Assembly: GCA_022072165.1 (NCBI GenBank)
Contig: JAJVIF010000001.1
Span: forward strand, 833,353-897,352
Length of the DNA stretch: 64,000 bases
Reading direction: 5' to 3'
Source: a bacterium
GTDB taxonomy: Bacteria > JAJVIF01
Positions within the stretch are counted from its first letter, which is position 1. The number at the start of each line of letters is the position of its first letter. Below, in pieces: positions 1-61,645 of the stretch. Below the pieces are notes generated by a model. That model did not search any database. It worked only from the letters and a program-made list of their open reading frames with translations, and had not been told where the DNA came from. The position numbers and the translations under genes were made by a program.

Positions 1-1052
1 CAACGAACGCCCTCCGCGGTGTGGTCCATCAGCGCCTGCACGTTCCACCGGTGGTGGAGTATGCTGAGATTCATCGCAACACCGCAGCGTTTGGTCAGGC
101 GTCGACCCAGACTGTGATGACCAGCTTCGGTACGCAGATGTTCGGCCAGCACATTCATCAGCTGGAAGTCGATTCCACCAACCGGGTCCTGTTCGCCCAC
201 AAGACTGGCGACACTACCCAGGGTGCGCCTGCCAGCACCATCTATCCTGCTGGGACTGGCGCGGCGGCAGACATCAAGTACTTTGATTACTCTGGCGCTG
301 TGGTCCCCTGGGCGAGTGTCCAGACCATCAGCACAGGTGGAAATCGCGTGGTGGCGATGGCCCTGGACCAGTCGGACAACGTCTGGATGATCGACACCAA
401 CAACATCCTCCACAAGTACCTGAAGACCAGCGCGTACGCCGAAGATACTTCCGGCGGACTCCCCCTGGACCTGAAGGGTGCTCCTTACAACCTGACTCTC
501 TCAGGCGCAGGCGCGACTGACTGCCGCATCCACGACTTCCTCATCGACTGGCGCACCAACGCGACCCTGATCCTCTACCAGACGCGCGAGGCTGCTGGCA
601 GCCCTGGTAACGGTTATGTGCTGCGTCTGGACTGCGATCTGAGCAAGCCCGCGACAGTCGCCGGCAACCCGAATCCGCTGCGGTTCATCCTCTCGGACTC
701 CACGACCCAGTCCTATCCGGTCGATATCACTATTGACCAGATCAACACGTCTGGGGCGGCTGCGCCTTCGTTACAGACCTCGCAGCAGATCCTCATTTCG
801 GGTACGACAGCCAGCGCGGCTCTGCCTGACTGGTACATTATCGACACCAACCTGTTCACACGGTTCTCGCGTGATGTGGCCCCCTTCGGGCTGTCTTCAA
901 CCTATGGCTGCAAGATGGTTGTCAACGTGCACAACAATCTGCAGCACTCCTGGGGGAACAGCGCCGGTGGCGCAGCAGTTGCATACGCCTACTACTACAA
1001 GCACGGCGAAGCCCTCTCGGGCACGAATGGCAGTCCCCCCGGCTGGCAGTAG
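1..1052 (+). CDS. C-terminal part of a large lipoprotein-family protein (5' end outside window)
   Basis: The reading frame is open from the window edge, so the start lies upstream and only about 349 codons are visible. The segment matches the last third of the next gene (1209-4106) block by block. Shared blocks are DSTNRVLF, a YPAGxG turn, ISTGGNRVxAM, a YxIDTN-like strand, YAEDT, IHDFxxDWR, GYVxRxxCD, ATVAGNPNP and the terminal PGWQ. The repeated short beta-strand blocks look like a beta-propeller-type fold (inference). It ends just before a strong terminator. No catalytic motif was recognised. It is probably the C-module of a secreted lipoprotein arranged in tandem with its paralogue. Confidence 0.8.
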   Translation, partial: TNALRGVVHQRLHVPPVVEYAEIHRNTAAFGQASTQTVMTSFGTQMFGQHIHQLEVDSTNRVLFAHKTGDTTQGAPASTIYPAGTGAAADIKYFDYSGAVVPWASVQTISTGGNRVVAMALDQSDNVWMIDTNNILHKYLKTSAYAEDTSGGLPLDLKGAPYNLTLSGAGATDCRIHDFLIDWRTNATLILYQTREAAGSPGNGYVLRLDCDLSKPATVAGNPNPLRFILSDSTTQSYPVDITIDQINTSGAAAPSLQTSQQILISGTTASAALPDWYIIDTNLFTRFSRDVAPFGLSSTYGCKMVVNVHNNLQHSWGNSAGGAAVAYAYYYKHGEALSGTNGSPPGWQ

Positions 1053-1082
1053 CTCAGGCTCACCCTGCTGAACAAGCTCATC

Positions 1083-1106
1083 GCCCCCTCGTTCGAGGGG
1101 GCTTTT
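1083..1106 (+). terminator. Rho-independent terminator after the first lipoprotein gene
   Basis: A perfect inverted repeat of 9 bp (GCCCCCTCG / CGAGGGGGC) is followed at once by TTTT. It lies 30 nt after the stop codon of the upstream gene and separates it from its tandem paralogue. Confidence 0.85.
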
Positions 1107-1116
1107 GCTTGCCAAT

Positions 1117-1147
1117 TTGACCGGAGCCGTGAGACGTGGCGTAGTAT
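1117..1147 (+). promoter_or_regulatory. possible promoter for the 1209 lipoprotein gene
   Basis: TTGACC (1117-1122) and TAGTAT (1142-1147) resemble -35 and -10 hexamers with a long 19-bp spacer. The position just after a terminator and about 60 nt before the next start codon fits. The spacer length makes this tentative. Confidence 0.35.
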
Positions 1148-1208: not shown

Positions 1209-4106
1209 ATGCGCGACTGCTGGTACCCGGTGAGCCTGCTGCTCCCGTTGTTGCTGTTGGCCTGTTCTGCCGCGGGGCCATCCGCCCCGCAGACAGAGTT
1301 GGACCCGGCAGCGACCGCTGTTCCCCAGGTCTGGCAGCCCGCTGATGATCTGCAAGTCTTTCTTCCGGGCTACTACGAGCTCGCCTGGCAGCCCTCCGGC
1401 GAAGTGGCAACCTCGTGGTTACCGACACGGGGGCTCCAGCAGACCGATGATCTGTATGACCTGAGTGTCGCGCCGTTCTTCACGAAGCAGATGCTGCAGG
1501 CGGTCCGGGTCGATCGACAACCGCAGGAAGTACGGGTGTCGTTCCGGGTCACCCATCCATTTGCCGCACCGACCAGTCTCGATGCACCTCCCAGCGGACG
1601 GAATCGCGCCGATCTGGGCATCGCTGCCCGGCTGCTGGTGCTGCTGGATGCGAATCCGGCGACCGATGGCTACTTTGCGCCGCCTAACCGGGTCATCGCG
1701 CAGACCGGCCTGATTTCCAACGCCGACGGCTACTGGGCTCCCCGGGGTATCCTCGCTCCCCCGCAACCCCTCAGCGCCACGGCATTTCCGTACAAGCTGG
1801 TCGTGGATGAAATGCTGGACAACCGTCTGGCTCATTCCAACGGCGGGCAGGTGACTGGCAATTACGATCCGGTCGAAGGCTGGACCCGGGCGACTATGGG
1901 TCCGGATCTGGCAGGCTGGACGGGCTACGGGGTCCTGCATCAGGGGCAAGCGGCGGAAGTGACGATCGCGTTCGATGCCGTCCAGTTGCAGGCGAGCGGC
2001 TACGCCCCGGTGCTGCTGGCCCCGGTCGCGCTGTACAACGATCCCCGGGGTGGCGCGACTGGGCTGCAGAAGCGGGGGAATCGCCTCCCGCCGGCCACGC
2101 CAGACTGGACCCGCTTTGCGTACCGGATGCCGCATGGAGCGCTGGATGTGGAATCCGTGCGGCTGCTCGCGACCCCGGATCCTCTCCTCGCCAGCACGAT
2201 TTCCGCGACCACGCTGCATCTTCGGGTCACGGACTGGGATGCTCGGGCCACGGCATCAACGGCCACGGATTTGAGCGATGAGCCGGTGCTGTCGCTGGTC
2301 CAGGCCCAGGAGGTCGGACTGCCAGCACTGGAAGCGGTGATCCCGGCATTGGGCATTTCGGAGACCCTGCTCACCTGTCAGGATGACGACACCCTGTTTG
2401 GCGGGGACCTCGCCACAGACTCAGGACTCCCCTCGGACCCGCTCTACTACACCGGCATCCTCACCAATCCCGGACTCGCTGGGCAGCAGGTTGGGACGGT
2501 CTGGGGGATGGTCCGGGCTGTCGATGTCGAGGCCGATCAGGCATGGAACGATGGCTGGCGCTTCGCGCTGGACCCCGGACTTGCGCCACTGACCTCTGAT
2601 CGTCCTGAACCCATCACCTACCAGGCCTTCGCGGTGGCAGTGGAGTCCGGGAATCTGCCGCCCGTCCCCACACTCCTCTCTACGCCGCCGACGATTCCCA
2701 ATGGGAGCAGCACGACGGTCACCCTGGGGATGCTGACAGATCCGGAGAATGATCCGGTGGTGGTCAGCATCGACTGGGACAATGACGGCAGCTTTACAGT
2801 GGTCGACACCCTGACCTGGAGCAGCGGTTACCCGGTCCCGGTGACCTGGGACTCCACCCCCTATACCTACACGTGGACCGGCACGGCGGCGGACAACCGG
2901 ACGATTCCGGTCCGGTTCTTCGATGGCTATAACACGGTCACCGTGAATCTGACGACTCAGGTGATCCGCTGCGTGCCTGACAACTTCACGACGTCCATTA
3001 GCTGGACTTTCCCCGGCTTCTGGCCCTACTACACCATCGCCGCCAGCAGCGACATCCCGCCTGCTGACATGGCCGCTTTGCGGCTGCCTGGTGCGAGTGG
3101 TGGCGTGCTGTACGCGGGATTTGAGACCGGCAAGTTCGATCTCTACCGGTCGCATCTGCCGACACCGGGACCTGGCATCAACGAGCAGGTCACCAACTTC
3201 ACGGGCTTCGGAAGCAAAGCGGGAGCCCAGGTCGAGATTGACTCCACCAATCGCGTCCTGTTCTCCATGCGGGGTGCCGGGGAGTCACGGCTGGGGCCGC
3301 CCTCAGCGCTCTACCCGGCGGGAAGCGGGGTCGAGGCGAACATCTACTGGTTCGACTATGTCGCCGGAAGTCCTGCGACGACCTACAACGTCATCAGCAC
3401 CGGCGGCAACCGGGTCCTGGCAATGACCCTCGATGGCGATGACAACGTGTACTACATCGACACCAATCATCATCTCCATCGTCTGGTAAAGACATCGAGT
3501 CCGACCCCCTACGCTGAGGACACTACCGCCCCATACCCTATCGACCTGACCAGTGCCTCCTATAGCGGCGGCATCACAGTCGCTGGTGCAACCCCGGCAG
3601 AGCGACGCAAGATCCACGACTTCATCCTGGACTGGCGGTCTGGTGCGTTCTTCATCCTGGCCCAGAGCGAGGAAACTCCCACGGCGCTGGTAAAGAACGG
3701 GTATGTCTACCGGATCAACTGCGATGGTGGCTTTCCGGCCACTGTCGCGGGGAACCCGAATCCGTTGCCGCTCTGGCTGACCGACTCGAATGTGCAGGAT
3801 CGCAAGGCAGACATCACCATCGACCAGCTGGATGCCAATGGCGCGACTCTGGCAGGAGATGCCGGGAGTTCGCAAATTCTCGTGTCGGGATACATCCAGG
3901 TCGTCGCCGGAGCGCCGGAGATGCACTTCCTGGACACCAACCTCAGCGTGCTCGCCGAACGTCATGTCGACTACAACGGGGCCGCCCCGGTCGCGATCAA
4001 CACCAGCAACATGATCTCTTCCGGGTTCATCTACTGGTGGCTGTCGTATGTCGACTACACCGACACCATCGGCATCCGGAGCACGCCGATCCCTGGCTGG
4101 CAATAG
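1209..4106 (+). CDS. large secreted lipoprotein, N-module + PKD-like domain + propeller-like C-module
   Basis: 965 aa. A hydrophobic signal ends in a lipobox (LLAC, Cys19), so it should be a lipid-anchored exported protein. The N-module (to about residue 475) has HPFA at 116-119, RADLG at 133-137, an NADGY segment and the block GWTGYGVLHQGQ. It ends with the strand YQAFAVAV, starting at residue 471. Then comes a PKD/Ig-like domain of about 100 residues (TDPENDP, then DNDG). The C-module is shared with the gene at 1-1052 and ends PGWQ. GAGG lies 8 nt before the ATG. The N-module closely matches the convergent shorter gene at 4181-5686. Function unknown; surface display or binding is a guess. 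Confidence 0.85.
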   Translation: MRDCWYPVSLLLPLLLLACSAAGPSAPQTELDPAATAVPQVWQPADDLQVFLPGYYELAWQPSGEVATSWLPTRGLQQTDDLYDLSVAPFFTKQMLQAVRVDRQPQEVRVSFRVTHPFAAPTSLDAPPSGRNRADLGIAARLLVLLDANPATDGYFAPPNRVIAQTGLISNADGYWAPRGILAPPQPLSATAFPYKLVVDEMLDNRLAHSNGGQVTGNYDPVEGWTRATMGPDLAGWTGYGVLHQGQAAEVTIAFDAVQLQASGYAPVLLAPVALYNDPRGGATGLQKRGNRLPPATPDWTRFAYRMPHGALDVESVRLLATPDPLLASTISATTLHLRVTDWDARATASTATDLSDEPVLSLVQAQEVGLPALEAVIPALGISETLLTCQDDDTLFGGDLATDSGLPSDPLYYTGILTNPGLAGQQVGTVWGMVRAVDVEADQAWNDGWRFALDPGLAPLTSDRPEPITYQAFAVAVESGNLPPVPTLLSTPPTIPNGSSTTVTLGMLTDPENDPVVVSIDWDNDGSFTVVDTLTWSSGYPVPVTWDSTPYTYTWTGTAADNRTIPVRFFDGYNTVTVNLTTQVIRCVPDNFTTSISWTFPGFWPYYTIAASSDIPPADMAALRLPGASGGVLYAGFETGKFDLYRSHLPTPGPGINEQVTNFTGFGSKAGAQVEIDSTNRVLFSMRGAGESRLGPPSALYPAGSGVEANIYWFDYVAGSPATTYNVISTGGNRVLAMTLDGDDNVYYIDTNHHLHRLVKTSSPTPYAEDTTAPYPIDLTSASYSGGITVAGATPAERRKIHDFILDWRSGAFFILAQSEETPTALVKNGYVYRINCDGGFPATVAGNPNPLPLWLTDSNVQDRKADITIDQLDANGATLAGDAGSSQILVSGYIQVVAGAPEMHFLDTNLSVLAERHVDYNGAAPVAINTSNMISSGFIYWWLSYVDYTDTIGIRSTPIPGWQ

Positions 4107-4180: not shown

Positions 4181-5686
4181 CTACTGCTTCAGGATAACGA
4201 TGTGCCCACGACAGCAGGTGTCCTTTTGAGAGGCCTCCTGGATGGGAGCCAGGGCCGGATCGAGCCAGATGGTCCGCTCATCACCCGACAGCGCTTCGTG
4301 GTCAGCTACCACGACAAAACCGTGGTTGATCTGGTCGAAGCCGCCATCAGAGCCGGTATTGTTGGTGATATCGAAGCTCACGAGGAGCGGATCACCGACA
4401 GTCCCGGTGCCAGACAGGATCGTTCCGATTTGGTCAACGATCCCGATATCCGGAATCGACAGACTGACGCTGGAGATGCTGCTGTCGACAGGCACCTGCT
4501 GCAGTCGCCCACCCTCAGGGGCCGGGAACTCCGGATCGACAGTCGCGGCGTGGTCTTCATCCACGATCGCCAGCGTAATGGTGGCCGTTGATCCGACAGT
4601 CGCCCCCAGGACCGTATCACCTGACTGGTAGATCCGTGCGACCTCCGGTGCGCCGTACGGCATCCGGTACGCAAAATCGCGGGGGGAGTCGGTCGGGAGG
4701 CGATGCTCCCGCAACTGACGGCTGTTTTCACCCTGGCGCGGATCGGTGTAATAGGCCACCAGCGCGGTGTCGAGAGTCAGGGCCCCACCGGAGGTCAGTT
4801 GAGCCACCTCATCCAGATCGAAGACCAGCGTGCGACGAGAAGTCTGTCCCTGATGCAGGACTCCGTAACCAGTCCACCCGAGTGTCCGGGTGGAAGCGGC
4901 TGAGGCACCGGCATTGGAGCGATTCCAGCCCGCATCGGGGCCGTAGTTACCACTCGAGCCATTCGTGTTCTCGATGACAGCACCCGTGGAGGTGGAGACG
5001 CGACAGGCAGGATCGGACTCATCGACCAGTTGGATGTAGGGATGCAGGCGATTCGAGCCAGCCTGCCAGAAATCGTAGCCCTTCTTGCTGAGGGCGGCAG
5101 GATTCCCGAAACCATCCGGATTCAGGATGAACTTCGGGTTGGTCGTAAAGAGCTCTCCCCCGCTCTCGAACTGATAGTCCCCGGAGTGATTTGGGGCCAT
5201 CTCATCGATGACAAAGGAAGATGGGACTGGAGCGAAGACGAAGAATCGTCCGCTGATCCCCAGGTCCGCACGGTTCCCGGCGGAAGCTGGACCTTCGAAA
5301 TTGTTGGGACCCGGGAAAGGATGAGCAATCTCGATGTCGAGCTCCAGGTCCAGGTCACCATTGATCCGAACGCCAGTCACAGTCAGGGCATCCTCTCCAG
5401 CGAAATACTGGTGGATCGGCAGCGCAAAACGGTCACCGTTGGCCTGCGCCTCGCGGACTGAAGTGCCAGATTCCACCCTGGCCCGGAGCGGAGCAGCTTC
5501 GACATGAATCTGCCACTCTCCGCCGATGAACTCAGCCCTGGTACCGTGCTCTGTTTCGAAGAGCCCGGCAGTCGTCGGGAATGCAGGATCAGGGAGCGTG
5601 GCAAGCGTGGTAGGTGCGGTGCGTGAGCAGCCCAACATGGTCGCGCAGAGAGCGCAGATCACGGGGACTGGCAGAAATGTGCGCAT
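4181..5686 (-). CDS. short-form lipoprotein made of the family N-module only
   Basis: 501 aa from the ATG at 5686, which has AAGGA 9 nt upstream. A longer frame reaches 5806 but lacks the signal at its front. The signal ends in lipobox MLGC (Cys20). The protein carries the family marks: HPFP at 122-125, RADLG at 139-143, GWTGYGVLHQGQ and FAYRMPYGA. It aligns along its length with the first half of the 1209-4106 product, then stops where that protein passes into its PKD domain (LDPALAP, then about 20 more residues). It therefore looks like a natural one-module version rather than a broken gene. A CCTT/AAGG pair near the start could fold over the ribosome-binding site (weak). Function unknown. 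Confidence 0.85.
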   Translation of the reverse strand: MRTFLPVPVICALCATMLGCSRTAPTTLATLPDPAFPTTAGLFETEHGTRAEFIGGEWQIHVEAAPLRARVESGTSVREAQANGDRFALPIHQYFAGEDALTVTGVRINGDLDLELDIEIAHPFPGPNNFEGPASAGNRADLGISGRFFVFAPVPSSFVIDEMAPNHSGDYQFESGGELFTTNPKFILNPDGFGNPAALSKKGYDFWQAGSNRLHPYIQLVDESDPACRVSTSTGAVIENTNGSSGNYGPDAGWNRSNAGASAASTRTLGWTGYGVLHQGQTSRRTLVFDLDEVAQLTSGGALTLDTALVAYYTDPRQGENSRQLREHRLPTDSPRDFAYRMPYGAPEVARIYQSGDTVLGATVGSTATITLAIVDEDHAATVDPEFPAPEGGRLQQVPVDSSISSVSLSIPDIGIVDQIGTILSGTGTVGDPLLVSFDITNNTGSDGGFDQINHGFVVVADHEALSGDERTIWLDPALAPIQEASQKDTCCRGHIVILKQ

Positions 5687-8208: not shown

Positions 8209-9906
8209 ATGACCCTGTCTCCTGCCGCAGGCTCCGCGCTTGCCGACGTCCTCCTCCCCCAGGTCGAGGGGAAGGACCTGCTGCTGCCGCATCGGTTCGT
8301 GAAGTCGTGGCTGCAGCATGGACCGCGGACCGCCATCATTGATGGCAGTCGGGGCGATACCCCGTTCAGCTACCAGAACTTCGCGCTGGGGACCCACCTG
8401 TTCGCGAGCTGGCTGACTCACAACACCGACATGTCGGCGCAGAACTACGCCATTCTGCTCCCTTCGGGGATGGGATTTGCGACCGCCTTCTTCGCCTGCC
8501 AACTGCTGGGCAAGACCGTGGTGCCGCTGAACTATGCCCTTTCCCCCCGGGAAGTGCTCGACATCGTGAAGGATGCCGAAGCGACCACGGTCATCTCCTT
8601 CGAGCCCGACGCCAATGACCGGGCCTCGAACGCCATTTTTGGGCAGACGCTGGAGTTTCTGAACGATGAAATCCTGGCGCTGACCCCCGTCCTGATAAAT
8701 CATCACCATGTCCAGGGACGCATCCGGCATGAGGAGCCCTGGACACAAATGCCGGACATCACTCCCGATGATCTGGCGGTCCTGCTGTATACGTCCGGGT
8801 CCACTGGAAAGCCCAAGGGGGTCATGCAGACGCACCGGAATCTGGTCACCAATGCTGATGCTGCAGCGGAGCTGCTGAAGGCGGGCGAAGATGATGTTCT
8901 CTTCAGCGCGTTGCCGACCTTCCACTCCTTCGCCCTGACCGCCGGGATGCTCTTCCCCCTGCTGCATGGCCTGACTGCCTTCATGGAACCCCGGTTTATG
9001 CCCCGCTCGGTCCTGAGCCGGCTGGGCCCCAACAAGACCACCATTCATCTGGGGGTCCCGAGCATGTACAAAGCGTTCCTCGGCGTCTCCCGCATGAAGC
9101 CCTCCGAGGCCTTTGCTGGTGTCCGGTACTGCATCTCCGGTGGCGCTCCCATGCCGCCAGAGATCGCAGGAGGCTTCCGGCAGATCTACGGCAAGGACAT
9201 CCATGAAGGCTACGGCTGCACCGAAACCAGTCCGGTGATCTCCCTGAATCCGCTGGACCAGCCCAACCGACTGAGTTCTGTCGGACGGCCAATTCCTGGC
9301 GTAACCGTGGAGATCCGCGATGCCAACGGCCAGGCAGTCCCGCAGGGGGAAACCGGCGAAATCTGGGTGACCGGCCCGAACGTGACGCTCGGGTACTACA
9401 AGAAGCCCGAAGAAACCGCGCAGGTCTTTCACGATGGCTGGTACAACACGCAGGACATGGGGATGATCGACCAGGATGGCTATGTGTTCATCCTTGGGCG
9501 GACCAAGCACATGATCATCGTGGGTGGCGAGAACGTCTACCCCGCCGAGGTGGAAGCAGCGGTCATCAAAGTCCCGGAAGTCCAGGATGTCGCGGTGACT
9601 GGCGCTCCGGATGAAACCCGCGGCGAGATCGTCCACGCCTACGTTGTTCCGGCCGCTGGCTGGACTGGCGATGCCGCGCACATGGAATCGACCATCCGGG
9701 AGTTTCTGTCACACAATAACCTGCTGGGGTCGTACAAGATTCCGCACAAGGTGACGTTGCTGGAGCAGATCCCGTTGCTCCCGACAGGAAAGCCCGACCT
9801 TCCGGCCCTGCGCGGTGAGCGGCAGATGATCACCAATGTGGCAGTCCTGCAGGCGCAGGCCGCTGCAATTCGGGCTGACATGGAAGCCGCAGCGCAGGAG
9901 GGCTAG
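8209..9906 (+). CDS. AMP-forming acyl-CoA ligase (long-chain fatty acid type)
   Basis: 565 aa from the ATG at 8209, with AAAGGATGG upstream. GTG 8188 and ATG 8197 are in-frame alternatives. ANL superfamily: a fatty acid is activated with ATP to an acyl-adenylate and then joined to CoA. Motifs in order are LYTSGSTGKPKGVMQTH (P-loop-like A3), GGAPMPPEI, GYGCTETSP (A5), TQDMGMIDQDGYVFILGR (A7/A8 hinge), IIVGGENVYPAEVE, and LPTGKPD with the catalytic lysine. Substrate specificity cannot be read. A TAGAAT hexamer at 8136-8141 could be its -10. Its TAG stop overlaps the stop of the convergent lipoprotein gene in a CTAG palindrome. Confidence 0.88.
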   Translation: MTLSPAAGSALADVLLPQVEGKDLLLPHRFVKSWLQHGPRTAIIDGSRGDTPFSYQNFALGTHLFASWLTHNTDMSAQNYAILLPSGMGFATAFFACQLLGKTVVPLNYALSPREVLDIVKDAEATTVISFEPDANDRASNAIFGQTLEFLNDEILALTPVLINHHHVQGRIRHEEPWTQMPDITPDDLAVLLYTSGSTGKPKGVMQTHRNLVTNADAAAELLKAGEDDVLFSALPTFHSFALTAGMLFPLLHGLTAFMEPRFMPRSVLSRLGPNKTTIHLGVPSMYKAFLGVSRMKPSEAFAGVRYCISGGAPMPPEIAGGFRQIYGKDIHEGYGCTETSPVISLNPLDQPNRLSSVGRPIPGVTVEIRDANGQAVPQGETGEIWVTGPNVTLGYYKKPEETAQVFHDGWYNTQDMGMIDQDGYVFILGRTKHMIIVGGENVYPAEVEAAVIKVPEVQDVAVTGAPDETRGEIVHAYVVPAAGWTGDAAHMESTIREFLSHNNLLGSYKIPHKVTLLEQIPLLPTGKPDLPALRGERQMITNVAVLQAQAAAIRADMEAAAQEG

Positions 9907-12497
9907 TAGACCGCGCTGAAGAGGTCGGAGTCGTACCCCGGTCCAGGGTCCATGTCCCGTTCCCAGACCACCACGACTTCCCGCGTGACGGGATTGAACA
10001 CGGCTGCGGGTTCATTGTGATCGACGCCGCTCTCTTCGCTGATCACTTCGTACAGGCTGTCACCAATCTGCGCCGCACTGGCATCGTAGGGAAAGCGCTT
10101 GGCCAGGATGCGTCGGTTGGTGACGCCCTGCTGGAAGATGTTTTCCCAGACGAGAGTCACTTCGCTGGTGAGCGGGTCGAGGCAGACCTGCCCAAAGAAG
10201 TTGTACTGCGGCAGGTTCCCGATCCGGGCATGACTCCATGATTGGGCGGTCGCATCCCAGCGGAGGTAGTAGGCCAGCGCACCACCACCGGAGGGATTGT
10301 CGAAGTACGCGCCGATCAGGTCATCGCCCGGTCCCGGCTGCAGCATGAAGCAGAGGTGCGGACCATCCGGCATCCCGATGGGCTGTCGTGCTGGCCAGGA
10401 GGTCGCTCCGGCCGCCTTACGGAGCCAGAGTCCCTGACGGCTGAGACCTGAGCCATCCATGTAGACCACGAAGCACTCGCCGTCGCTGACCGCCGCACCC
10501 ATAAAGGAATGGAAACCGGTCGTGCCCCGGTCATCCGCCAGAATCGGCGCGCTCCAGGTGCCCGCCGCCGGTCGCTCAACACTGAAGAGGTCCATGCCCG
10601 AAGTTTCCAGGATCAGATACTGGTAGCCAGTCGCGAGATCCTGCACCAGACGGCAATAGGAAAAGGACCCGCCTCCCGGAGCGGGCAGATCGCTGACGCT
10701 GACCACCGTTTCAGGCAGGCTGAGTGTCCGGGTTCCCAGATCGAATGTGCGGTACTCCATGATGTTCGCTGTCGGACCGGCGGGATACGCCAGCTGCAGG
10801 ATGTTGCCTTCCTGGGCGACTCCGGGCATCCGGGGGACCTGCAGGTCAGTGGTGGAATACGCTTCTGCAGCACAAGCCGATCCCAAGTGCCCGACCAGGA
10901 CGCTTCCTGAAGGACTCCGAAAAAGGACATGCGCTCCCCCGGTCTCATCAATGAAGACCCGGCGATCAGTCTGTCCTGCCTGCTGCTCCAGCGACTCATT
11001 GCCAGCTGAGAGGGTGAGATTCCGTACATCGCGCCAACCGGGAAGTACCACTGTCAGCGGCAACGTCTCGATATCCGACTGCTGGCTCTCATCGGTGACC
11101 CGCAGCGCCACCATCGCGGCTCCGCTGCCGGGATAGAGATGCTGGGTCCGACGGCCAATCCCCTCGACATCAAACTGGAGCCCGTCGTAGTCAAAGTCCC
11201 ACTCGTAGATCAGGTCTTCCGGAGCGGTCAGGTCATCGCTGGATCCCGTGCCATCGAAGACATAGAGCTTGCTCGCCACCAGCACCTGGGTGCTGCAGGG
11301 CTCGCTGATCACAGCGCTCGGTGGGTTACTGACTTCCTGGATCGTGACAGCGAAAACTTGCCAGGTGCTGTAGTCCGACTGGGCAAAGGGAGTCTGGAGA
11401 TCATCCTGAATCCCGGTCCCGCTGGTCGCGGCATCCTGGATGCGCACCAGCCCCCAGTAGGTCCCTGCCCCCGCAGCGGAGTCGTTGGAGATGGTCGCCT
11501 GGGCGATAAGCGGCGCAGGATCCTTCCCGGTGCCGCTCATGGGCCCGAGGGAGCCGGTGAAGTCCAGTCCCGGCACGAAGACGGTCCCGCCGGTGACATC
11601 CGTGCCGATACCAGCACCATGCCCCCAGTCCCAGACCCGGACTTCGTAGGTCGCACTACTCCCCAGAACTCCCGGAGTCAGCTCATTGGAAAGCTCAGTG
11701 ACCTCGACACGCCAGGGGGCTTGCCCCGCAAAATCGGGCAGGGTGTAGACCGGGGTCTGACGAGTCCGGAAGGTCGCAGACTGGCCATAGTCCGCGGTGA
11801 GATAGAGCCGGACTCCCAGCGAAGCGGTGGCAGAACCCAGCTCGAACTCGATCTCGGACTCATGGGTCGAGCCAGCGGCAAAGACATTCCAGCCAGCGGG
11901 GTTCGTGAATTCAAACGCGGGGGTGCTGGTATCCCGGGAGAAAATCACATACGGCAGCAGGGTGTCGGACGTGCCCGCGTGCCCGGTCCAGAGCGGGGAG
12001 TAGCCATCGGCATTCGTCACAATCCCCGGAGCGAGTCGCTGCGTCCCCAACTGCTGCGAAGCCGAGACCTCCACATGCGCCTTGAGATTGAACGCATGGA
12101 GGTCGGGGCGAAAGGCCGGCTGGAACGGGTGCCGGGTCTCAAAGCGGACCCGGACTCGGGTCGGCGAAATCAGCTCCAGCCCCCGGACCGCGAAGCAGTC
12201 GCACACATCCCCCTTGAGCGCTCCGGTGAGTCCTACTTCGTGATAGCGGTCGCCAATCGCCATGCTGGTGCGCAAGGGGCTGACGGTCGCCACTGGCAGC
12301 CCGGCATCATCGATCGCCAACTGGAGGTCATAAGCTCCAAGCGGCAACTCCGGGCGCGCGAACTGTGGTGTCTGGTCCTGTACGACCGCAGGCGTCACAG
12401 CGGAGGGATTCGTGGATTGCTGACATCCATGAAGAACAAGTCCCAGTACCAGCAGGCTGCTGCTGGTGAGGCATAGCGACAGGGCGTCGAGGCGCAT
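9903..12497 (-). CDS. large secreted lipoprotein, N-module + PKD domain + sialidase-like C-module
   Basis: 864 aa from the ATG at 12497, with AAGGAGGG 7 nt upstream. Lipobox VLHGC (Cys25). The N-module has a CxC (Cys99, Cys101), HPFQ at 123-126, PDLHAFN, NADGYS, WNVFAAGSTHE and YTLPDFAG, and ends near residue 390 with VFAVTI. A PKD domain follows (YEWDFDYDG, then ALRVTD). The rest has repeated blocks suggesting a beta-propeller (FVVYMDGSG, LVWENIF, VVVWERD). Its closest relative is the 14102-16696 gene, which has the same length. It lies 58 nt after the M18 aminopeptidase gene and probably shares its transcript. Function unknown. Confidence 0.85.
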   Translation of the reverse strand: MRLDALSLCLTSSSLLVLGLVLHGCQQSTNPSAVTPAVVQDQTPQFARPELPLGAYDLQLAIDDAGLPVATVSPLRTSMAIGDRYHEVGLTGALKGDVCDCFAVRGLELISPTRVRVRFETRHPFQPAFRPDLHAFNLKAHVEVSASQQLGTQRLAPGIVTNADGYSPLWTGHAGTSDTLLPYVIFSRDTSTPAFEFTNPAGWNVFAAGSTHESEIEFELGSATASLGVRLYLTADYGQSATFRTRQTPVYTLPDFAGQAPWRVEVTELSNELTPGVLGSSATYEVRVWDWGHGAGIGTDVTGGTVFVPGLDFTGSLGPMSGTGKDPAPLIAQATISNDSAAGAGTYWGLVRIQDAATSGTGIQDDLQTPFAQSDYSTWQVFAVTIQEVSNPPSAVISEPCSTQVLVASKLYVFDGTGSSDDLTAPEDLIYEWDFDYDGLQFDVEGIGRRTQHLYPGSGAAMVALRVTDESQQSDIETLPLTVVLPGWRDVRNLTLSAGNESLEQQAGQTDRRVFIDETGGAHVLFRSPSGSVLVGHLGSACAAEAYSTTDLQVPRMPGVAQEGNILQLAYPAGPTANIMEYRTFDLGTRTLSLPETVVSVSDLPAPGGGSFSYCRLVQDLATGYQYLILETSGMDLFSVERPAAGTWSAPILADDRGTTGFHSFMGAAVSDGECFVVYMDGSGLSRQGLWLRKAAGATSWPARQPIGMPDGPHLCFMLQPGPGDDLIGAYFDNPSGGGALAYYLRWDATAQSWSHARIGNLPQYNFFGQVCLDPLTSEVTLVWENIFQQGVTNRRILAKRFPYDASAAQIGDSLYEVISEESGVDHNEPAAVFNPVTREVVVVWERDMDPGPGYDSDLFSAVY

Positions 12498-32705: not shown

Positions 32706-32758
32706 AAGTGCGTCGACTCCTCGTCCGCCAGCGGCTTCCCGCGAAGGGAATCCGCCGG

Positions 32759-32837: not shown

Positions 32838-32838
32838 C

Positions 32839-33168
32839 TTACCCGTGCAGTTCGTGGAGTTCATCCACATCGGCACGGGGGGTTGCTTTAAAGATCATGA
32901 CCACCAGGGCGAGGCCCACACCGACTTCGGCGGCAGCAATCGCCATGATCATGAGGGCGATCACCTGCGCCTCCAGGTGGAGCCCGCCATACATCCGGGC
33001 ACTGGTCACCAGAGCCAGATTGGCGGCGTTCAGCATGAGCTCGATGCTCATCAGCACCACCAGCGGATTCCGTCGCAGCAGGACGCCGGCGAGGCCAATG
33101 ATGGCGAGCAGCGTACTGATGATCAGCAGGCAGGACTGGGCGGTGGGAGCAGGCAGGAGGGTTGGCAT
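32839..33168 (-). CDS. nuoK: NADH-quinone oxidoreductase subunit K
   Basis: 109 aa, three membrane helices; matches the MrpC-like subunit. Typical parts are GLAGVLLRRNPLVVLMSIELMLNAANLAL with the conserved membrane Glu in IELMLN, and VIALMIMAIAAAEVGVGLAL with the second Glu. Ends EELHELHG-like DELHELHG. Separated by 24 nt from nuoJ. Confidence 0.95.
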   Translation of the reverse strand: MPTLLPAPTAQSCLLIISTLLAIIGLAGVLLRRNPLVVLMSIELMLNAANLALVTSARMYGGLHLEAQVIALMIMAIAAAEVGVGLALVVMIFKATPRADVDELHELHG

Positions 33169-33192
33169 AGGTCAGTTCGTCACGAGCCCGGG

Positions 33193-39436: not shown

Positions 39437-39464
39437 GCGCGCGGGTCTCCTTCCCTCGGGGTCC

Positions 39465-53823: not shown

Positions 53824-56361
53824 ATGGTGCGCTGGTACACCCCCGCCTACTCCTGGTCCCTGGCTGGGGCCATGCTTCTGACACTGACCGCCTGCTCCGG
53901 AGGCGCCCGGCCAACAGAGCCGGTGAAGCCTGCCAGTGCGACCCCTCCGTCGCCTACAGCGACCCTCGCCGAAGGGGTACTCCCCTCGGGAAGTGCCATA
54001 CTGGGCATCGCGAAGATGACGGTGGATCCCGTGACCGGGCAGGCCGATCTGACCCCCCTGCGGAGTCCGGTAGCGGTGGGCGATGCCTACACGGTCGATG
54101 TCACAGGCTTCTTCACGAGCAATCCCTGTATCGATTGCATGAAGATCACGGGATTCGGGCGCGTGACCGGGGCGAACAATCAACTCCGGGTCGACCTCCA
54201 GCTCCGGCATCCCTTCCCCGAAACGAACAAGCGTCGCGATCTGGACGTTTTCGATCCGCGCGTCATTTTGATCAACGCCACTGATGCCCAGCGCCTGGCT
54301 ATGGTCTTCCCCGGGACCCCTGGTACCGATACCGACCGTGATGGCAGCGCGGAGGCGATCGAGGGGAATCTCGATATCCTCGCCAATGCTGATGGATTCA
54401 CCACCCATTTCGATAAGCGGGCGGAAGAAATCGCGGGGATCGCCCTGCCGGGGAATCTGAATCCCTACAAGAACTACTACACCGATATCTTCCCCAACGA
54501 TCCCAATCTCTTTTCGCGCAATGCCAATCACCGGATGGCGCAGACTTCACCGCCTGAAACCCAGTCGTTCCACATCACCTACCCATCCGGGGCCAGCCGA
54601 CTGGAGTACTACCTGATTCTTGAGGCGGCTTGGGGAGTCGCGGCGACCAAGGACACCCGGCTGGTGCCGACTTATCACCTGCCTGAGTTCAACATGAAGG
54701 AAGCCTTCAGCGTGTCGATGAGCGATGTGACACGCAGCCTGACCAGTATTCCTGGCTCCACTACGACTTTTGAAGTCATGGTGGCCGACTGGCAGGCCTA
54801 TGGCGAAGTGAATCCCTCGTACCCGGATCCGGTCAGGACTGACTACCTGCCGACCTTCTCCGACGCCGAGCAAATCTGGCTGGAAGCGCCGGATGTGGCG
54901 AACGTCGCCTTCACCACTTCGACCCGCATTACGGGCATCGGGACCGAAGCAGATCCCTGGCGGTTCCAGGTCTCCTTCACCAACACGCTGGGAGCTACCG
55001 CAGGCCGGTACCCGGCATTGTTGACTGTCCGCGACAGCCGCGATGGTCTCGTGCAGAGCGTGGAAGGGGTCAGCCCGACCCTGGGGTACACCACCGATGT
55101 CCGGGCCTACCGGCTGGTGGAAGTGGTGGTCCAGGACCCAACGACGTACAACGTAGATCCGAGCCGGGAAAATCTGGCGCTCCCCTCGCTGCAGGGCTCG
55201 GTCACCTATGCTGGCACCACGCAGCCGCTGGGCGACTTGGCCGTGTTCAACGATGGCACGGGCACCAAGGGCGTACTGATCCCGAACTACCCCACAGGGG
55301 GGGTCGCGCGATACAACCTGGACTACACGCTCCTGAACGCCTCCTATGGTCCAGGTGCGAAGCCATACAACAGCTACCCTGGCACCAATCCGCATCCGGA
55401 CCCGTTGAGCGACATGCCGATCAGTCGCATCGATGCTGCCGACAACGGCAGCTATGTCGTGACCTTCGCAGACGACAACTTCACGTTCAACCCGGGGGGA
55501 CTCCCCGGCAGCACGCTGACTCGTCCGCTGCCGATGAGCAACTTCGCGGCGTACTACATCAACGAAGGTGGTGTCATCCTGCCCGCTCCCCGCTTCATTG
55601 GCGGCTGTGGGTCCGCGGGGACCACCATCGCTCCCCTGTTCGGCGAAAAGATGCTGGATGTCTGGGATACCCCCGCCTATTCCTCGGCGTACACCGGCCC
55701 CCTGGGATATCTCTCGGGCGGTGAAAGCACCCAGCGCTGCGGCGATACGCTGGATTACTTCGTTTTCGCGTCGCCCTACAACAGCAGCGCTACCACAGTT
55801 CGGCAGGTCAGCGGCAAGGGCAATGTGCTCTTTGATGTACTGCCAGCCGCCTGGCTCACTGACTTCCGAGCCGCTGACAGTGGCACCCGTCAGACCAACG
55901 GCAGCCAGGACCTCTACTGCCTGGTCGGTGGTGATCTTTACATCATCAACAGCCGGGAAGGCATCAACAGCAACAACGTCGCCAGCCCCTCGCCGGTCTC
56001 GCTGCGAAAGCGGACGATCCTCGATACGGTGAATGACATCGGGCTGGAGCCGGTGGACCTGGAAGTCCTGCCGTTCAACCGTAACATCCTTCGGAACTAC
56101 GACGGCATCGGGCAGATCAACGACTGGCTGGTGATTCTCTACCGGGATCAGAGCACGGGTTATGGCCTGCTGCGGGTGTTTGACACCGCAGGATTCACCC
56201 TCCTGACCGAGATCGACAGCCGGGCGGCGGGTGGTCCGATGAACGCCTACGTCACCGCCGTCGATGTCGACAACACCAGCTTCGAGATCCATGTCGCCAT
56301 GGACAGCAACGGGGCCGCCGCCGGTGGCACCTATGTGGTCACGGTCTTCACCCTGAGCTAA
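53824..56361 (+). CDS. large secreted lipoprotein, CxxC type, first of three in tandem
   Basis: 845 aa from the ATG at 53824 with GGAGGAG 6 nt upstream. Lipobox LTAC (Cys24). The N-module shows VAVGDAYTVDVTGFF, a CxxC (Cys102, Cys105), HPFP at 129-132, RRDLDVFDPR, NADGFTTHFD at 188-197, SPPETQSFHI, YHLPEFNMKEA and VADWQ. It ends near residue 430 with AYRLVEVVVQD. The C-module has a TNPHPDP turn, DNGSYVVTFADDNFTFNP and the closing MDSNGAAAGGTYVVTV. The next two genes share both modules. The Cys pair could form a disulfide outside the cell. Function unknown; expression of the trio is probably joint. Confidence 0.87.
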   Translation: MVRWYTPAYSWSLAGAMLLTLTACSGGARPTEPVKPASATPPSPTATLAEGVLPSGSAILGIAKMTVDPVTGQADLTPLRSPVAVGDAYTVDVTGFFTSNPCIDCMKITGFGRVTGANNQLRVDLQLRHPFPETNKRRDLDVFDPRVILINATDAQRLAMVFPGTPGTDTDRDGSAEAIEGNLDILANADGFTTHFDKRAEEIAGIALPGNLNPYKNYYTDIFPNDPNLFSRNANHRMAQTSPPETQSFHITYPSGASRLEYYLILEAAWGVAATKDTRLVPTYHLPEFNMKEAFSVSMSDVTRSLTSIPGSTTTFEVMVADWQAYGEVNPSYPDPVRTDYLPTFSDAEQIWLEAPDVANVAFTTSTRITGIGTEADPWRFQVSFTNTLGATAGRYPALLTVRDSRDGLVQSVEGVSPTLGYTTDVRAYRLVEVVVQDPTTYNVDPSRENLALPSLQGSVTYAGTTQPLGDLAVFNDGTGTKGVLIPNYPTGGVARYNLDYTLLNASYGPGAKPYNSYPGTNPHPDPLSDMPISRIDAADNGSYVVTFADDNFTFNPGGLPGSTLTRPLPMSNFAAYYINEGGVILPAPRFIGGCGSAGTTIAPLFGEKMLDVWDTPAYSSAYTGPLGYLSGGESTQRCGDTLDYFVFASPYNSSATTVRQVSGKGNVLFDVLPAAWLTDFRAADSGTRQTNGSQDLYCLVGGDLYIINSREGINSNNVASPSPVSLRKRTILDTVNDIGLEPVDLEVLPFNRNILRNYDGIGQINDWLVILYRDQSTGYGLLRVFDTAGFTLLTEIDSRAAGGPMNAYVTAVDVDNTSFEIHVAMDSNGAAAGGTYVVTVFTLS

Positions 56362-56379: not shown

Positions 56380-58974
56380 ATGTCTCACACTCGCCTACTG
56401 ACACCGACCGGTCGCCTGATCCGACCCCTCTGGCTCCCCCTCCTGACTCTCCTGGGGACCAGCCTCGCCTGTCAGGGGAGCGGCAACGCGCCCACCACCA
56501 GTAGCCTGCCTGGCACCACGCCAACTCCTGCGCTGGCACCAGCGCTCACGGAAGGCGACAGCGCTGAGGTGTCCTTCGGCATCTGGCGTGTCAAAGCCAG
56601 CGCTGAAGGCGTGGAAATGCTGCCGGTCCGTGACAGCACCCTGTTGGGTGACAGCTATGCGCTGGACGCAACACAGTTTTTCAATCAGTCGCCTTGCTCC
56701 ACCTGCCTGCGGATAACCCATTTTGAGCTGGTCGCCGAGGATCAGATCGATCTCGATATCCGACTGGCGCATCCGTTCCCGGATCAGTCCAAACGGGCGG
56801 ACCTCGACGTTTTCGACCCGCGGCTGATCGTGGTGGCACCTGCCCTGGCGGACTACGGTGCACTCTCGTTTCCCGGCACCCCGGGGTACATTCCCGCGCC
56901 TGGCGAGCTCAACGAGCCCCTGCGGGCAAACACCAACCTGCTGCGCAACGCCTCCGGGTACACCACCCACTTTGACCGACGGGTTAACGAGTTGCTCGGT
57001 GTGAGCTGGGACGGCAACCTGAACCCGTACATCGACTTCGCCGAAGATCTGGATCCAGGGCCAGGGGTACTCCCGAATCCCAATCATCGGCTGAGCCAGG
57101 CTTCGCCTCCGGAAACCCAGACATTCCAGTTGACCCTCCCCAGCAGTGGAGTACTGGAGTTTGCGCTGGTGCTGGAAGTCAGCTATGGCGAATCGGCGCT
57201 GAAGCCGACCCGCCTGAGCCCGGCGTATTACACCCCGGAGTTCAACCGCAAAGAAGCCCACGACATCACTGGCGATTTTCCGCTCGGTAACGTGATCAAC
57301 CGGGCGCACGGCAGTTCCCTGCCGATCCGGGTACGAGTCGCGGACTGGCAGCATTCCGAAACTGTTGACCCGGCATATCCCCAGGTCGCTAATCCGGCAG
57401 GGCTCAAACAGTCATCGCGGGTCACGCAGGTGTATCTGGAAGCGCCGACGCTCTTTACCGGCAGCCTGAGCAACAATATCCCGATCACTGGAAGCGGCAC
57501 CCAGGCCAGCCCCCTGGTCTATCCCTTCACTGTGCCCCGCACCCGCAATTTGCCACCGCCAGCGGGCAAAGCGCCCGTGCTGGTAACAGTCGTCGACGAA
57601 CTCCACAACTCCGCTCAGTCGATCCCCGAGAGCGTAGGCAACTACGGTTACACGCAGGATGTTCGTGGGTACCAGATTCTTTATCTGGAGGTCGAGGAAG
57701 TCGGGCGATTCGAGACTCTATCTCCCGCCTACACCCTCTTTAGTGTAGGCCAGATGCCGCAGGCGGCGTATGGTGGCGGACCGGCCGGTCGCCCCGACAT
57801 TGCGGTCTACAACAATGGCAAGGACCGGAGCGGGGTCTACATCCCGGGAAGCAACAATGTCCTGCGACGCTACCCGCTTTGGTACGGGATCGAAGACATC
57901 ACGATCGTGGATTCGGCACCGGTCACCGGCACCGGGCTGCTTCCGTTCAATGACTACGGTGGTACCAATCCGCATCCTGCGCCCGGCAACTTCATGCCGA
58001 TTCGTGCGGTCGATGCCACCGATAACGGCAGCGTCATCCTGGCGTATGACGATCCCAACTTCACTTTCGATCCGGCCAGGATCGCCAATACTGCACTCAC
58101 CATCGAGCTCCCCAACGACAGCATCGTCACGTTCTTCGATAACGCCCTGGGCGACATGCGCTCCTCGCCCCGCTTCCTGGCGGAGGCTGGCTCCGCCGGC
58201 GCGATCGGTGCCCCGGCATACGGCGAGCGCGTGATGAATGTCGCGGAACCCGGACTGGGATTCCTGTCCGCAACTTCGCCGCTGACCTGGATGGCGGGCG
58301 GTCCTGCCACCGAACTGGATGGCGATACGGTCCAGTGGTTCATGTGGAATGCACCGTTCAGCAACCAGACCAACCGGGTACTGAGCGGGGACGTGGATCC
58401 CAATGTCCTCTCCAGCGGTATGCCTTCCGCATGGACTGACCTGGTGGCTTATGACATTGGTACCTACCAGTCCGGGAGTGGGTCTGCCCGCCAGCTGATG
58501 TACGTGCTGGATCGCACTGGCGATTTGCATGTCCTGGATGTCCTGGCCAACATCGGGGAGAACCGGCAGAGCAACCCAATCATCGAGTTCACCGGGTCGG
58601 TGCAGACCGTCGGCAGCTGGGATGTCGTTGACATCCAGGTGCTGGAATTCAACCCGGCGCGTCCGCTGGTGGCTAATGGCTTCACCCAGCAGCGCGACTG
58701 GTTCGCGGTCCTGTTCCGCAATCAGGATCCTGGGGATCCCGGTGGCAAGTTACGCATCATGGAATACGTGCCCGGCGGCTTAGGTTTCAGCCTGATTCAG
58801 CAGTTTCATGATGGCGGAGGGGCCTCGACACATCCCTACCTGTCGAATGGGGCTGCCGAACCTGTGGCGCTGGATGTCGATGACATCAATGGCGCGATTC
58901 ACATCACGTTCGACTCCAACGGGATGGCGACGCCCGGTGGAGATATCCTGGTGACCGTGATCGCGCCGCTCTAA
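56380..58974 (+). CDS. large secreted lipoprotein, CxxC type, second of three
   Basis: 864 aa. Lipobox SLAC (Cys31). GGGAG lies 8 nt before the ATG, 18 nt after the previous stop, so both are one transcript. N-module: DSYALDATQFF, Cys106 and Cys109, HPFP at 131-134, RADLDVFDPR, SGYTTHFDRR (Asn-Ala-Asp-Gly is Asn-Ala-Ser-Gly here), SPPETQTFQL, YYTPEFNRKEA and VADWQ. C-module: TNPHPAP, DNGSVILAYDDPNFTFDP and FDSNGMATPGGDILVTV. Clear paralogue of its neighbours on both sides, with divergence along the whole length. Function unknown. Confidence 0.87.
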   Translation: MSHTRLLTPTGRLIRPLWLPLLTLLGTSLACQGSGNAPTTSSLPGTTPTPALAPALTEGDSAEVSFGIWRVKASAEGVEMLPVRDSTLLGDSYALDATQFFNQSPCSTCLRITHFELVAEDQIDLDIRLAHPFPDQSKRADLDVFDPRLIVVAPALADYGALSFPGTPGYIPAPGELNEPLRANTNLLRNASGYTTHFDRRVNELLGVSWDGNLNPYIDFAEDLDPGPGVLPNPNHRLSQASPPETQTFQLTLPSSGVLEFALVLEVSYGESALKPTRLSPAYYTPEFNRKEAHDITGDFPLGNVINRAHGSSLPIRVRVADWQHSETVDPAYPQVANPAGLKQSSRVTQVYLEAPTLFTGSLSNNIPITGSGTQASPLVYPFTVPRTRNLPPPAGKAPVLVTVVDELHNSAQSIPESVGNYGYTQDVRGYQILYLEVEEVGRFETLSPAYTLFSVGQMPQAAYGGGPAGRPDIAVYNNGKDRSGVYIPGSNNVLRRYPLWYGIEDITIVDSAPVTGTGLLPFNDYGGTNPHPAPGNFMPIRAVDATDNGSVILAYDDPNFTFDPARIANTALTIELPNDSIVTFFDNALGDMRSSPRFLAEAGSAGAIGAPAYGERVMNVAEPGLGFLSATSPLTWMAGGPATELDGDTVQWFMWNAPFSNQTNRVLSGDVDPNVLSSGMPSAWTDLVAYDIGTYQSGSGSARQLMYVLDRTGDLHVLDVLANIGENRQSNPIIEFTGSVQTVGSWDVVDIQVLEFNPARPLVANGFTQQRDWFAVLFRNQDPGDPGGKLRIMEYVPGGLGFSLIQQFHDGGGASTHPYLSNGAAEPVALDVDDINGAIHITFDSNGMATPGGDILVTVIAPL

Positions 58975-59043
58975 GGCGCACACGGTCGCTGACCGCCGCT
59001 GGCGTCTCGACCACGCCAGGGGAGTTCGGTCCTTTGTTAGATA

Positions 59044-59065
59044 GCATTCGCCGTTGGGCGGATGC
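59044..59065 (+). other. leader stem-loop before the third tandem lipoprotein
   Basis: GCATTCGCC / GGCGGATGC forms a 9-bp stem (one T:G pair) with loop GTTG, 21 nt before the ATG and 7 nt before the GGGGAGG site. It could control translation or stabilise the mRNA. Confidence 0.4.
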
Positions 59066-59086
59066 CGGATCCGGGGAGGTGTGCGC

Positions 59087-61645
59087 ATGGTCGCACGACA
59101 GGTGAGCAGCAGTCTGGCGCTTTTGGGGCTGACACTCTTGCTGGGGTGTCAGGGTGGGACGCAACCCGCAGGACTGGCCCCTGACCCAGCTCAGCCCAAC
59201 GCCGCCGCAGCTCCGGCCCCGGAGGGATCTTTCGGTACAGGGCTGCTCGGTGCAGCACGGCTGACTGTGAATCGACATACCGGCGAGGTGAGTCTGCTGG
59301 CTGCCCCGACTGGTGCTGCGGTCGGTGACTTTTTTGCGCTGGATGCGACTCAGTTTTTCACCTCCGATCCGTGTCGCGACTGCATGCGCCTCACCAGTTT
59401 TGCTTTTGCCGCTGACGAGCTGGAGCTGGAAGTCACCATCCGGCATCCGTTCCCGAATACCAGCCAGCGTCGGGATCTGGATGTATTCGATCCCCGGGTG
59501 ATCGTCTTCGCTCCGGCAAAGACAGAGTGGTCGTATGTCGAGTTCGATACGGCCCCAACCTATTTGCGGCCGAATCCGGTCGGCGGCGCTCCTTCTCCCG
59601 CCAAACTGTCGGCCAACACCAACTTCCTGCTGAAGAACGACGGGTACACCACCCGCTTTGACGAGCGGGTTGATTTCCTCTATGGCGTCAGTTACCAGGG
59701 GACGCTGAATCCGTTCCGTAACTACGCCACGCTGCTGATACCGAACGATGTGCTTTCGGGGCCAAATCCCGAGCGACGCTTCAGTCAGGATCGTGCCCCT
59801 GAATCGGAGACGTTCAACATTTACCTGCCGGATGGTGTAGATGTCTTCGAGGCGATCTTCGTGCTCGAAGCCAGCTACGGCCAGTCCGCAACCCGACCGA
59901 CCCGGATGAGCCCGACGTACTACGTCCCTGCGTTCAATCGCAAAGAGGCGTACGAACTGAAAGCTGCGGTCAGTCCGCCGGTGGCCGGGCTGGAGTATCT
60001 GAGTCAGATGGATGTGTCAGTCTCGGTGTTGGACTGGCAGCAGCAGTCGCCATTGGATCTGACCTACCCCAATCCAGCAAATCTGGATGCCGTCCCGGTG
60101 TCCAGCAAAGTCCGCGATATCACGATTGTCCTGCCTGGCTGGTCGGCCAATCCGATGACGGTGGTTTCACCGAACAGCGGCGTCGGCACCCCCTCTTCTC
60201 CGCTGATCTACTCAGCGGTGCTGGAACGCGACGAAATCTTTCCGCCCCGTCCGGACGCGGTGTTGCCACTGCTGGTCATCGCGACTGATGAGATGCAGGG
60301 GCAGGTCATGAGCAACACCAACCCGGCATTCGACTTGGGGACCTCGTACGATGCGGCCGCATACTACATCGAGCGGATCCCGCTCAACGTAGCCCAGACA
60401 TTCGCCACTGGTCCTTCGGCTCCGGGCATGATGGTTGCGACAACAGGCGCCAGGATTCGGACCGCGCCCTACGCCAACGCAGACGAAGGTGCCGCACAGA
60501 TTGAGCCGGTCTACATCTCCCCCCTGGACAGCCAGGGGCGAGCGCCGGCCCGGGACCTGCGTTTCCTGGTAGCTCCGCTCACCGGTGATTTCCGACTGAT
60601 TACCCCGCCAGGCACGCTCGTTCCGCAAAACGTCGTCTACACCACTGGCGAGAAGCCGATCGACGACTATCCCGATACTCCGAACGCCCATCCCAATCCG
60701 GGTGCGACCATGCCGGTGACATCACTCGCGGCGCTTCCTAACGGGAACTTCATTACAGGCTTCGGGGATCACAACTTCACTGTCAATCCGATTCGCTTCA
60801 GCACAGGACTGACAGACCGGGTGGCGAACAGCGATTTGGTACGTACCTGGCGCACCGGTGGTGCGGGGACCACCCTTGGGCCACGGCTGTCGCAGGGTTG
60901 CGGTAGTGCGCCGGGACCGGCGTTTGGGGCGCGGGTGCGTCAGGTCCTCTCGGCACCTGGGATTGTCCTGGGAAGTCGGAGCAATTTGCTGGGTTTCATC
61001 TCAGCCGGTCTGAATTCTGAAGACTGCGCTAACTTTGTGCGACTGGATTACTACGGCGCGCCTTACTCATCTGAAAGTGACCGGATCTTCTCAGCTAACC
61101 TGAAGACTATCGCGCTTGACCTGTTTGGAGGGGTCGAGACAGAGCCGAACTACCGGCAGTTCCGGGGGGTCGAGCCCCTGGGCTTCAGGAATGCGAATCA
61201 GTGGCTTCATGCGGCGTTCTTCGGCAACCGGGTGGTGCTGTTCAATGTGCTGCAGAACTTCAGTCCAGTGACGCGGAGCTCCGTGCCAAATGTGTTAGGC
61301 ACTCGCAGCACGGGGGTCGAAAACATCGTGGATATGGCCTATGTCCCCTACGACCCGGACTACCCCTTTGCCATTGGCGGTGCTCCCCAGAGTACCGACT
61401 GGCTCCTGCTCCTGGTGCGTGGAGGACTTGGCGGCTACCGGCTGCTGGCCCTGGATGCGACGGATACCTCTCTCCCGCTTGTCGCGGACTGGAATGGCGC
61501 AACGCCGGGGAGCTGGGGCATGGGGACACCGATCATTACCGACATGGACTTCGACCAGGTGAATCGCATCCTTATCCTGAGCTACGACAGCAATGGCGTG
61601 TCAGCCGGTGGCGACATCCTCTCCACCCTGCTGATGACTTTCTGA
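59087..61645 (+). CDS. large secreted lipoprotein, CxxC type, third of three
   Basis: 852 aa from the ATG at 59087 (GGGGAGG upstream). Lipobox LLGC (Cys21). N-module: DFFALDATQFF, Cys96 and Cys99, HPFP at 120-123, RRDLDVFDPR, NDGYTTRFDERV, APESETFNIYLP, YYVPAFNRKEA and VLDWQ. C-module: AHPNPGATMPV, NGNFITGFGDHNFTVNP and SYDSNGVSAGGDILSTL. A 112-nt gap with a leader hairpin separates it from the second gene, and a strong terminator follows. The three genes are a tandem duplication that has since diverged. Function unknown. Confidence 0.87.
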   Translation: MVARQVSSSLALLGLTLLLGCQGGTQPAGLAPDPAQPNAAAAPAPEGSFGTGLLGAARLTVNRHTGEVSLLAAPTGAAVGDFFALDATQFFTSDPCRDCMRLTSFAFAADELELEVTIRHPFPNTSQRRDLDVFDPRVIVFAPAKTEWSYVEFDTAPTYLRPNPVGGAPSPAKLSANTNFLLKNDGYTTRFDERVDFLYGVSYQGTLNPFRNYATLLIPNDVLSGPNPERRFSQDRAPESETFNIYLPDGVDVFEAIFVLEASYGQSATRPTRMSPTYYVPAFNRKEAYELKAAVSPPVAGLEYLSQMDVSVSVLDWQQQSPLDLTYPNPANLDAVPVSSKVRDITIVLPGWSANPMTVVSPNSGVGTPSSPLIYSAVLERDEIFPPRPDAVLPLLVIATDEMQGQVMSNTNPAFDLGTSYDAAAYYIERIPLNVAQTFATGPSAPGMMVATTGARIRTAPYANADEGAAQIEPVYISPLDSQGRAPARDLRFLVAPLTGDFRLITPPGTLVPQNVVYTTGEKPIDDYPDTPNAHPNPGATMPVTSLAALPNGNFITGFGDHNFTVNPIRFSTGLTDRVANSDLVRTWRTGGAGTTLGPRLSQGCGSAPGPAFGARVRQVLSAPGIVLGSRSNLLGFISAGLNSEDCANFVRLDYYGAPYSSESDRIFSANLKTIALDLFGGVETEPNYRQFRGVEPLGFRNANQWLHAAFFGNRVVLFNVLQNFSPVTRSSVPNVLGTRSTGVENIVDMAYVPYDPDYPFAIGGAPQSTDWLLLLVRGGLGGYRLLALDATDTSLPLVADWNGATPGSWGMGTPIITDMDFDQVNRILILSYDSNGVSAGGDILSTLLMTF

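Follow-up and report, generated by a model that had tools for sequence, protein, structure and literature searches.

A stretch of 64,000 nucleotides from a bacterium of the GTDB lineage JAJVIF01 (assembly GCA_022072165.1, contig JAJVIF010000001.1, positions 833,353 to 897,352; hereafter the window) holds eight large genes that an earlier note had described as modular lipoproteins, and it raises the question of whether these genes form one family and what such a family would do. The answer that we regard as fairly probable is a phylum-restricted set of outer-membrane lipoproteins in which a constant N-terminal stalk carries a shuffled repertoire of C-terminal heads. All eight open reading frames (ORFs) are indeed open where the note had placed them. 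As it had also claimed, each of the seven genes with a visible start encodes a lipobox (LLAC with C19, MLGC with C20, LHGC with C25, LGGC with C21, LTAC with C24, SLAC with C31 and LLGC with C21). The same seven complete proteins carry HPF(A/P/Q) at residues 115-131, an R-x-DL motif C-terminal to it at residues 122-139, and an N-x-DG(Y/F) or NADGY-type segment at residues 154-190. The gene at 1-1052 has its N-terminal module (N-module) upstream of the window. Since HPF is expected in a given 30-residue stretch only about 0.0014 times per protein, its occurrence at the same place in seven of seven proteins is not due to chance.

At the level of sequence, the N-modules share a common ancestry. 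BLAST joins all seven N-modules of the window, directly or through intermediates, with E-values down to 1e-16 between subgroups. They fall into three subgroups (RADLGI, PDLHAF and DLDVFDPR types), and profile-profile comparison with hhalign connects these at E 2.4e-16, 7.7e-13 and 5.8e-9. The N-modules thus form one family and are not convergent motifs. A comparison of 72 diverse N-modules shows the His of HPF in every one (72/72), and conservation of 94-99% for the other key residues: Pro of HPF, Arg, Asp and Leu of R-x-DL, and a small number of Gly, Pro, Tyr and Asp positions. The wider signature, in the order HPF...R-x-DL...N-x-DGY...Y-x-x-P...DW, extends across a module some 350-430 residues long.

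As a domain family the N-module is new: none of the Pfam-A or NCBIfam models reached its curated cut-off on the window N-modules, and scanning of the 72 N-modules against both collections returned only PKD_4 in three of them and single stray matches. Neither the PHROG families nor PDB sequences, the latter searched with profiles of 7 and 72 sequences, gave a match to the module, and we found no description of this lipoprotein family in the literature. The earlier statement that no named family carries the signature is thus upheld, with no strong Pfam match to set against it. When the N-module of the gene at 9903 was modelled separately, AlphaFold predicted a coherent, essentially all-beta fold (pLDDT 78.6, pTM 0.81). 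The module probably consists of two beta-sandwich parts, the first with HPF and R-x-DL and the second immunoglobulin (Ig)-like, a division read from the order of the predicted strands, not computed from coordinates. Foldseek searches of the PDB with this model yielded only generic partial matches of the Ig or FnIII type (best TMq ~0.26) and none over the whole module, which places it below the TM-score of at least ~0.5 over the module that we take as membership in the fold of a PDB chain; a viral structure library did no better.

The family extends far beyond the window. In the source genome (3,260,764 bp in 4 contigs, 99% complete), a search with the N-module profile gave 137 matches. From the matching stretches we recovered 136 ORFs or fragments, which together span 388.5 kb (11.9% of the genome); once three fragments left by disrupted or truncated genes are set aside, the count comes to about 133 genes. 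The earlier interpretation is therefore supported and was understated, given these ~133 members and the 91-138 matches in each genome of the phylum. Essentially all intact members have a lipobox, its Cys opening the pattern C-[SQAN]-[GS]-[GS], and then a Pro/Ser/Thr-rich linker; Asp is absent from the common residues at position +2. The genes form 83 runs, 51 of which are lone genes and the others runs of 2-7, mostly in tandem. Members are diverged, with a median N-module identity of 25%. At locus L047, two family genes (G000:C1:1622303-1625245 and 1627718-1630525, G000 denoting the source genome and C1 its contig) are 99.9% identical over 2.8 kb and lie ~2.5 kb apart, the result either of a whole gene duplicated very recently or of a duplicate in the assembly. 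Clusters L017 (G000:C1:151694-162741), L062 (G000:C2:410634-425019) and L060 (G000:C2:380286-386105) contain truncated or stop-interrupted members, which suggests turnover by pseudogenisation.

The distribution of the N-module follows the phylum. All four phylum genomes examined, from three genera, were positive, with 138, 93, 109 and 91 matches. Sampled stretches of the three other phylum genomes have a G+C content of 46% to 49%, against 62% in the window. A profile search of 381 genomes outside the phylum, with at most four candidates scored per genome, gave zero matches, as did 383 relatives of a distant genome searched at the same depth; the latter set held no positive genome, and the same profile did detect the four phylum genomes in the 381-genome search. 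Scoring up to 44 candidates in each of 36 outsider genomes likewise gave zero matches. Found in four of four phylum genomes examined and in none of 764 others sampled (381 + 383), the module is a candidate hallmark of the phylum. A peptide-pattern scan of 84,980 GTDB species (r220) found a single relative, the metagenome-assembled genome AUK107/PB_MBMC_061 from Auka hydrothermal sediments (site paper PMC9213671); the pattern was drawn from a subgroup alignment, the mixed alignment having yielded no conserved peptide. A mobile or viral origin was considered and set aside, with no match found on plasmids or in viral contigs. In a FastTree phylogeny for which the other phylum genomes were sampled only partly, 97 of 134 N-modules of the source genome formed one single-genome clade and the other 37 were interleaved with relatives. 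This topology suggests an ancestral repertoire followed by a large lineage-specific expansion.

Behind this one type of N-module the C-terminal parts are diverse: among 121 of them, BLAST left 25 unlinked clusters. PKD matches in Pfam occur in about one quarter of the heads, and propeller-type matches include SBBP, BNR, Kelch, FG-GAP, PQQ and PD40; GEVED, He_PIG and Big Ig-like domains, GH43 and F5/8C are also found. One head matches the MauG di-haem cytochrome peroxidase (E 1.4e-49), and weak matches point to M10, M12 and M57 peptidases and to metallo-beta-lactamase. The head of L052 (G000:C1:1874937-1878428) matches HZS_alpha, the middle domain of the hydrazine synthase alpha subunit (PF18582, E 8e-11), and has a PD40 propeller repeat as well. 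In the full-length AlphaFold model of the gene at 9903 the head is poorly predicted (mean pLDDT 59), and the resemblance of this low-confidence model to sialidase and kelch propellers in Foldseek is only suggestive of a propeller-like head. The C-terminal ends are biased to Pro, Gln and aromatic residues; a shared sorting signal was rejected in the absence of a motif common to unrelated heads. Fewer than 30 residues follow the N-module in nine members and 30-100 in six more, so that 15 have tails below 100 residues. Such short tails, the richness in PKD/Ig domains and propellers, and the gene dosage would fit structural proteins of the periplasm or envelope, forming a protein layer or periplasmic scaffold in which the heads are mere spacers. 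A uniform layer, however, would need neither 25 unlinked head clusters nor enzyme-like modules, and no SLH or S-layer family is among the Pfam matches listed; we consider this explanation highly improbable.

How unrelated heads came to share one N-module is visible in the DNA. The tandem genes C1:1694601-1698245 and C1:1698503-1701553 have 1,516 bp in common at 98.5% identity. In 150-bp blocks, identity stays at 99-100% between residues 50 and 500 and drops to a background of ~40-45% just before the N-module ends at residue 527; the two heads have no protein similarity. The gene at C1:1691354 displays the same drop, from 85%. C1:1016325 and C1:1022273 share 2,225 bp at 99.9% before DNA identity falls to background, with heads 43% identical in protein overall. 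Across the family, heads match each other by BLAST in only 39% of the pairs whose N-modules are 70% or more identical, and in the converse case heads similar over their full length sit on N-modules just 22-27% identical. These patterns are direct evidence of recombination that took place close to the stalk/head junction or at it, either as domain exchange or as conversion of the N-module; tandem-repeat misassembly, which could underlie identical N-modules beside unrelated heads, remains a caveat. The five tandem members of L050 (G000:C1:1683232-1702402), the last four with N-modules 75-97% identical in protein and heads mostly unrelated, are the clearest place for studying stalk/head recombination.

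Recombination at the junction could also serve a diversity-generating surface coat, with altered surface identity evading phages, predators or immune-like recognition. The very large copy number, the tandem arrays and the stalks identical in DNA in front of unrelated heads are what such a coat would produce, but 51 of the 83 runs are single dispersed genes, the members are as diverged as stated above, and there is no sign of one expression site with silent cassettes. MauG- and peptidase-like heads, moreover, suggest roles beyond antigen change, and no host is known for the organism, which together make a variable coat quite unlikely. The mycoplasma and Borrelia variable surface lipoproteins resemble the present family in their conserved lipoprotein signal end, variable remainder and tandem arrays; they differ in that a folded domain of ~400 residues makes up the conserved part here, with many of the members dispersed and the heads drawn from many unrelated families. 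Polymorphic toxins likewise combine a constant N-terminal part with exchange of C-terminal modules, here with a sharp DNA boundary. Where the heads here have Pfam matches, these are to propeller, PKD/Ig or enzyme-like modules, and most heads are unassigned. The genes next to one another in tandem all belong to the family; no Rhs, CDI or pre-toxin domain is among the Pfam matches listed, and immunity genes were not searched for systematically.

Three Omp85 matches in the genome and two LptF/LptG genes within the window indicate that the cell is a diderm. We propose that each precursor would be cut at its lipobox and lipidated at the Cys, which precedes a Ser/Gly/Pro-rich linker. The N-module would then act as a constant, lipid-anchored outer-membrane stalk that keeps the variable C-terminal head at a distance from the membrane, and the heads (beta-propellers, chains of PKD/Ig domains and, in some cases, enzyme-like modules) would bind extracellular material or process it. 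Duplication, and recombination at the stalk/head boundary, would give rise to new proteins, so that more than 100 different heads would have come to sit on one stalk type. Common ancestry, lipoboxes, copy number, phylum distribution, head diversity and exchange at the boundary are demonstrated by the data, whereas we infer the outer-membrane and surface location, the stalk role and the part that the heads play in binding or catalysis; the lack of a common +2 Asp and the diderm envelope are compatible with surface-exposed outer-membrane lipoproteins.

Several observations weigh against the constant-stalk, variable-head model. Most heads have no Pfam domain, and their description as binding or enzymatic rests on a minority. 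No known surface-export signal was detected. The standard LolA model (PF03548) has no match in the genome, where LolA_like appears only below its cut-off; the carrier for more than 130 lipoproteins would thus be either divergent or different. A periplasmic position of the heads is conceivable, and the N-module could itself bind a ligand, the invariant HPF/R-x-DL being functional rather than structural. Gene conversion of the N-module, finally, would leave a boundary that looks just like the product of head swapping.

If the heads do face outwards, they might capture nutrients in the manner of SusD or surface-glycan-binding proteins (SGBPs), each head taking up one polymer or nutrient and passing it to an outer-membrane transporter, with many substrates driving the expansion. 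Lipoproteins with large beta-rich ectodomains would suit this role, as would the matches of some heads to the BNR/sialidase-like, GH43 and F5/8C families. A single TonB-dependent receptor barrel in the genome, however, offers no one-to-one pairing with ~133 lipoproteins, which excludes a SusC/SusD-like one-to-one arrangement, and there is no SusD Pfam match; we hold nutrient capture of this type to be unlikely. The SusD/SGBP-type surface lipoproteins of Bacteroidota are alike in their lipid anchor, beta-rich or large ectodomain, expanded paralogues and presumed extracellular binding, and unlike in that the present family combines a constant N-module with an interchangeable head, has one TonB receptor to draw on, and matches no SusD, SGBP or BACON model. 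The extracellular domain families PKD, SBBP, BNR, Kelch and FG-GAP of Pfam match several heads only and never the N-module.

Modular envelope lipoproteins are already known as a general idea; what makes this system exceptional is its copy number, its restriction to one phylum and the head exchange visible in it. One undescribed domain in ~130 genes, occupying ~12% of a 3.3 Mb genome, is an unusual family expansion in a barely sampled phylum. It provides a new domain family for cataloguing, a concrete system of constant stalk and variable head in which head exchange is caught at the DNA level, and a testable way into the surface biology of barely known bacteria. The envelope of the phylum may even be built on a private display scaffold, with ~90-140 lipoproteins per genome, a new all-beta domain, heads recombined at a fixed junction and about one tenth of the genome devoted to it; this broader proposal we put slightly short of even.

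Within the window, a profile search found no additional family member beyond the eight. Member 1 (3..1052, + strand) is represented only by its C-terminal head module; the stretch 1-1052 contains no N-module, and its product is 45% identical to residues 649-920 of the gene at 1209-4106 (BLAST, E 1.5e-61). The whole gene, with start and N-module upstream, has 994 codons at G000:C1:831420-834401 and includes a lipobox. Member 2 (1209..4106, +) encodes a 965-aa lipoprotein with its N-module at ~1311-2648 and head at ~2649-4106; its motifs are lipobox LLAC, HPFA at 116, RADL at 133 and NADGY at 171, and as a query it gave 77 matches within its own genome. Member 3 (4181..5686, -; 501 aa, N-module 4238-5581) is nearly headless. 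Its final residues, EASQKDTCCRGHIVILKQ, are unlike the corresponding stretch of the gene at 1209-4106, a pattern as if truncation had removed the head.

Member 4 (9903..12497, -) is an 864-aa lipoprotein with the N-module at 11268-12395, a PKD-like segment and then a beta-rich, propeller-like head. Its paralogue, member 5 (14102..16696, -; 864 aa, N-module 15449-16582), is 34% identical to it across 817 aa (BLAST, E 3e-125). Members 6 (53824..56361, +; 845 aa, N-module 53962-55206), 7 (56380..58974, +; 864 aa, N-module 56518-57735) and 8 (59087..61645, +; 852 aa, N-module 59192-60448) form a tandem array of lipoproteins. APOBEC/deaminase matches in the gene at 56380 (E 0.06-0.19) fell short of the cut-off and were set aside as chance. 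Between the two groups of family genes, positions 27072-41075 of the window hold a respiratory complex I (nuo) gene cluster, into which a gene for a HEAT-repeat protein is inserted at 34250-35932.

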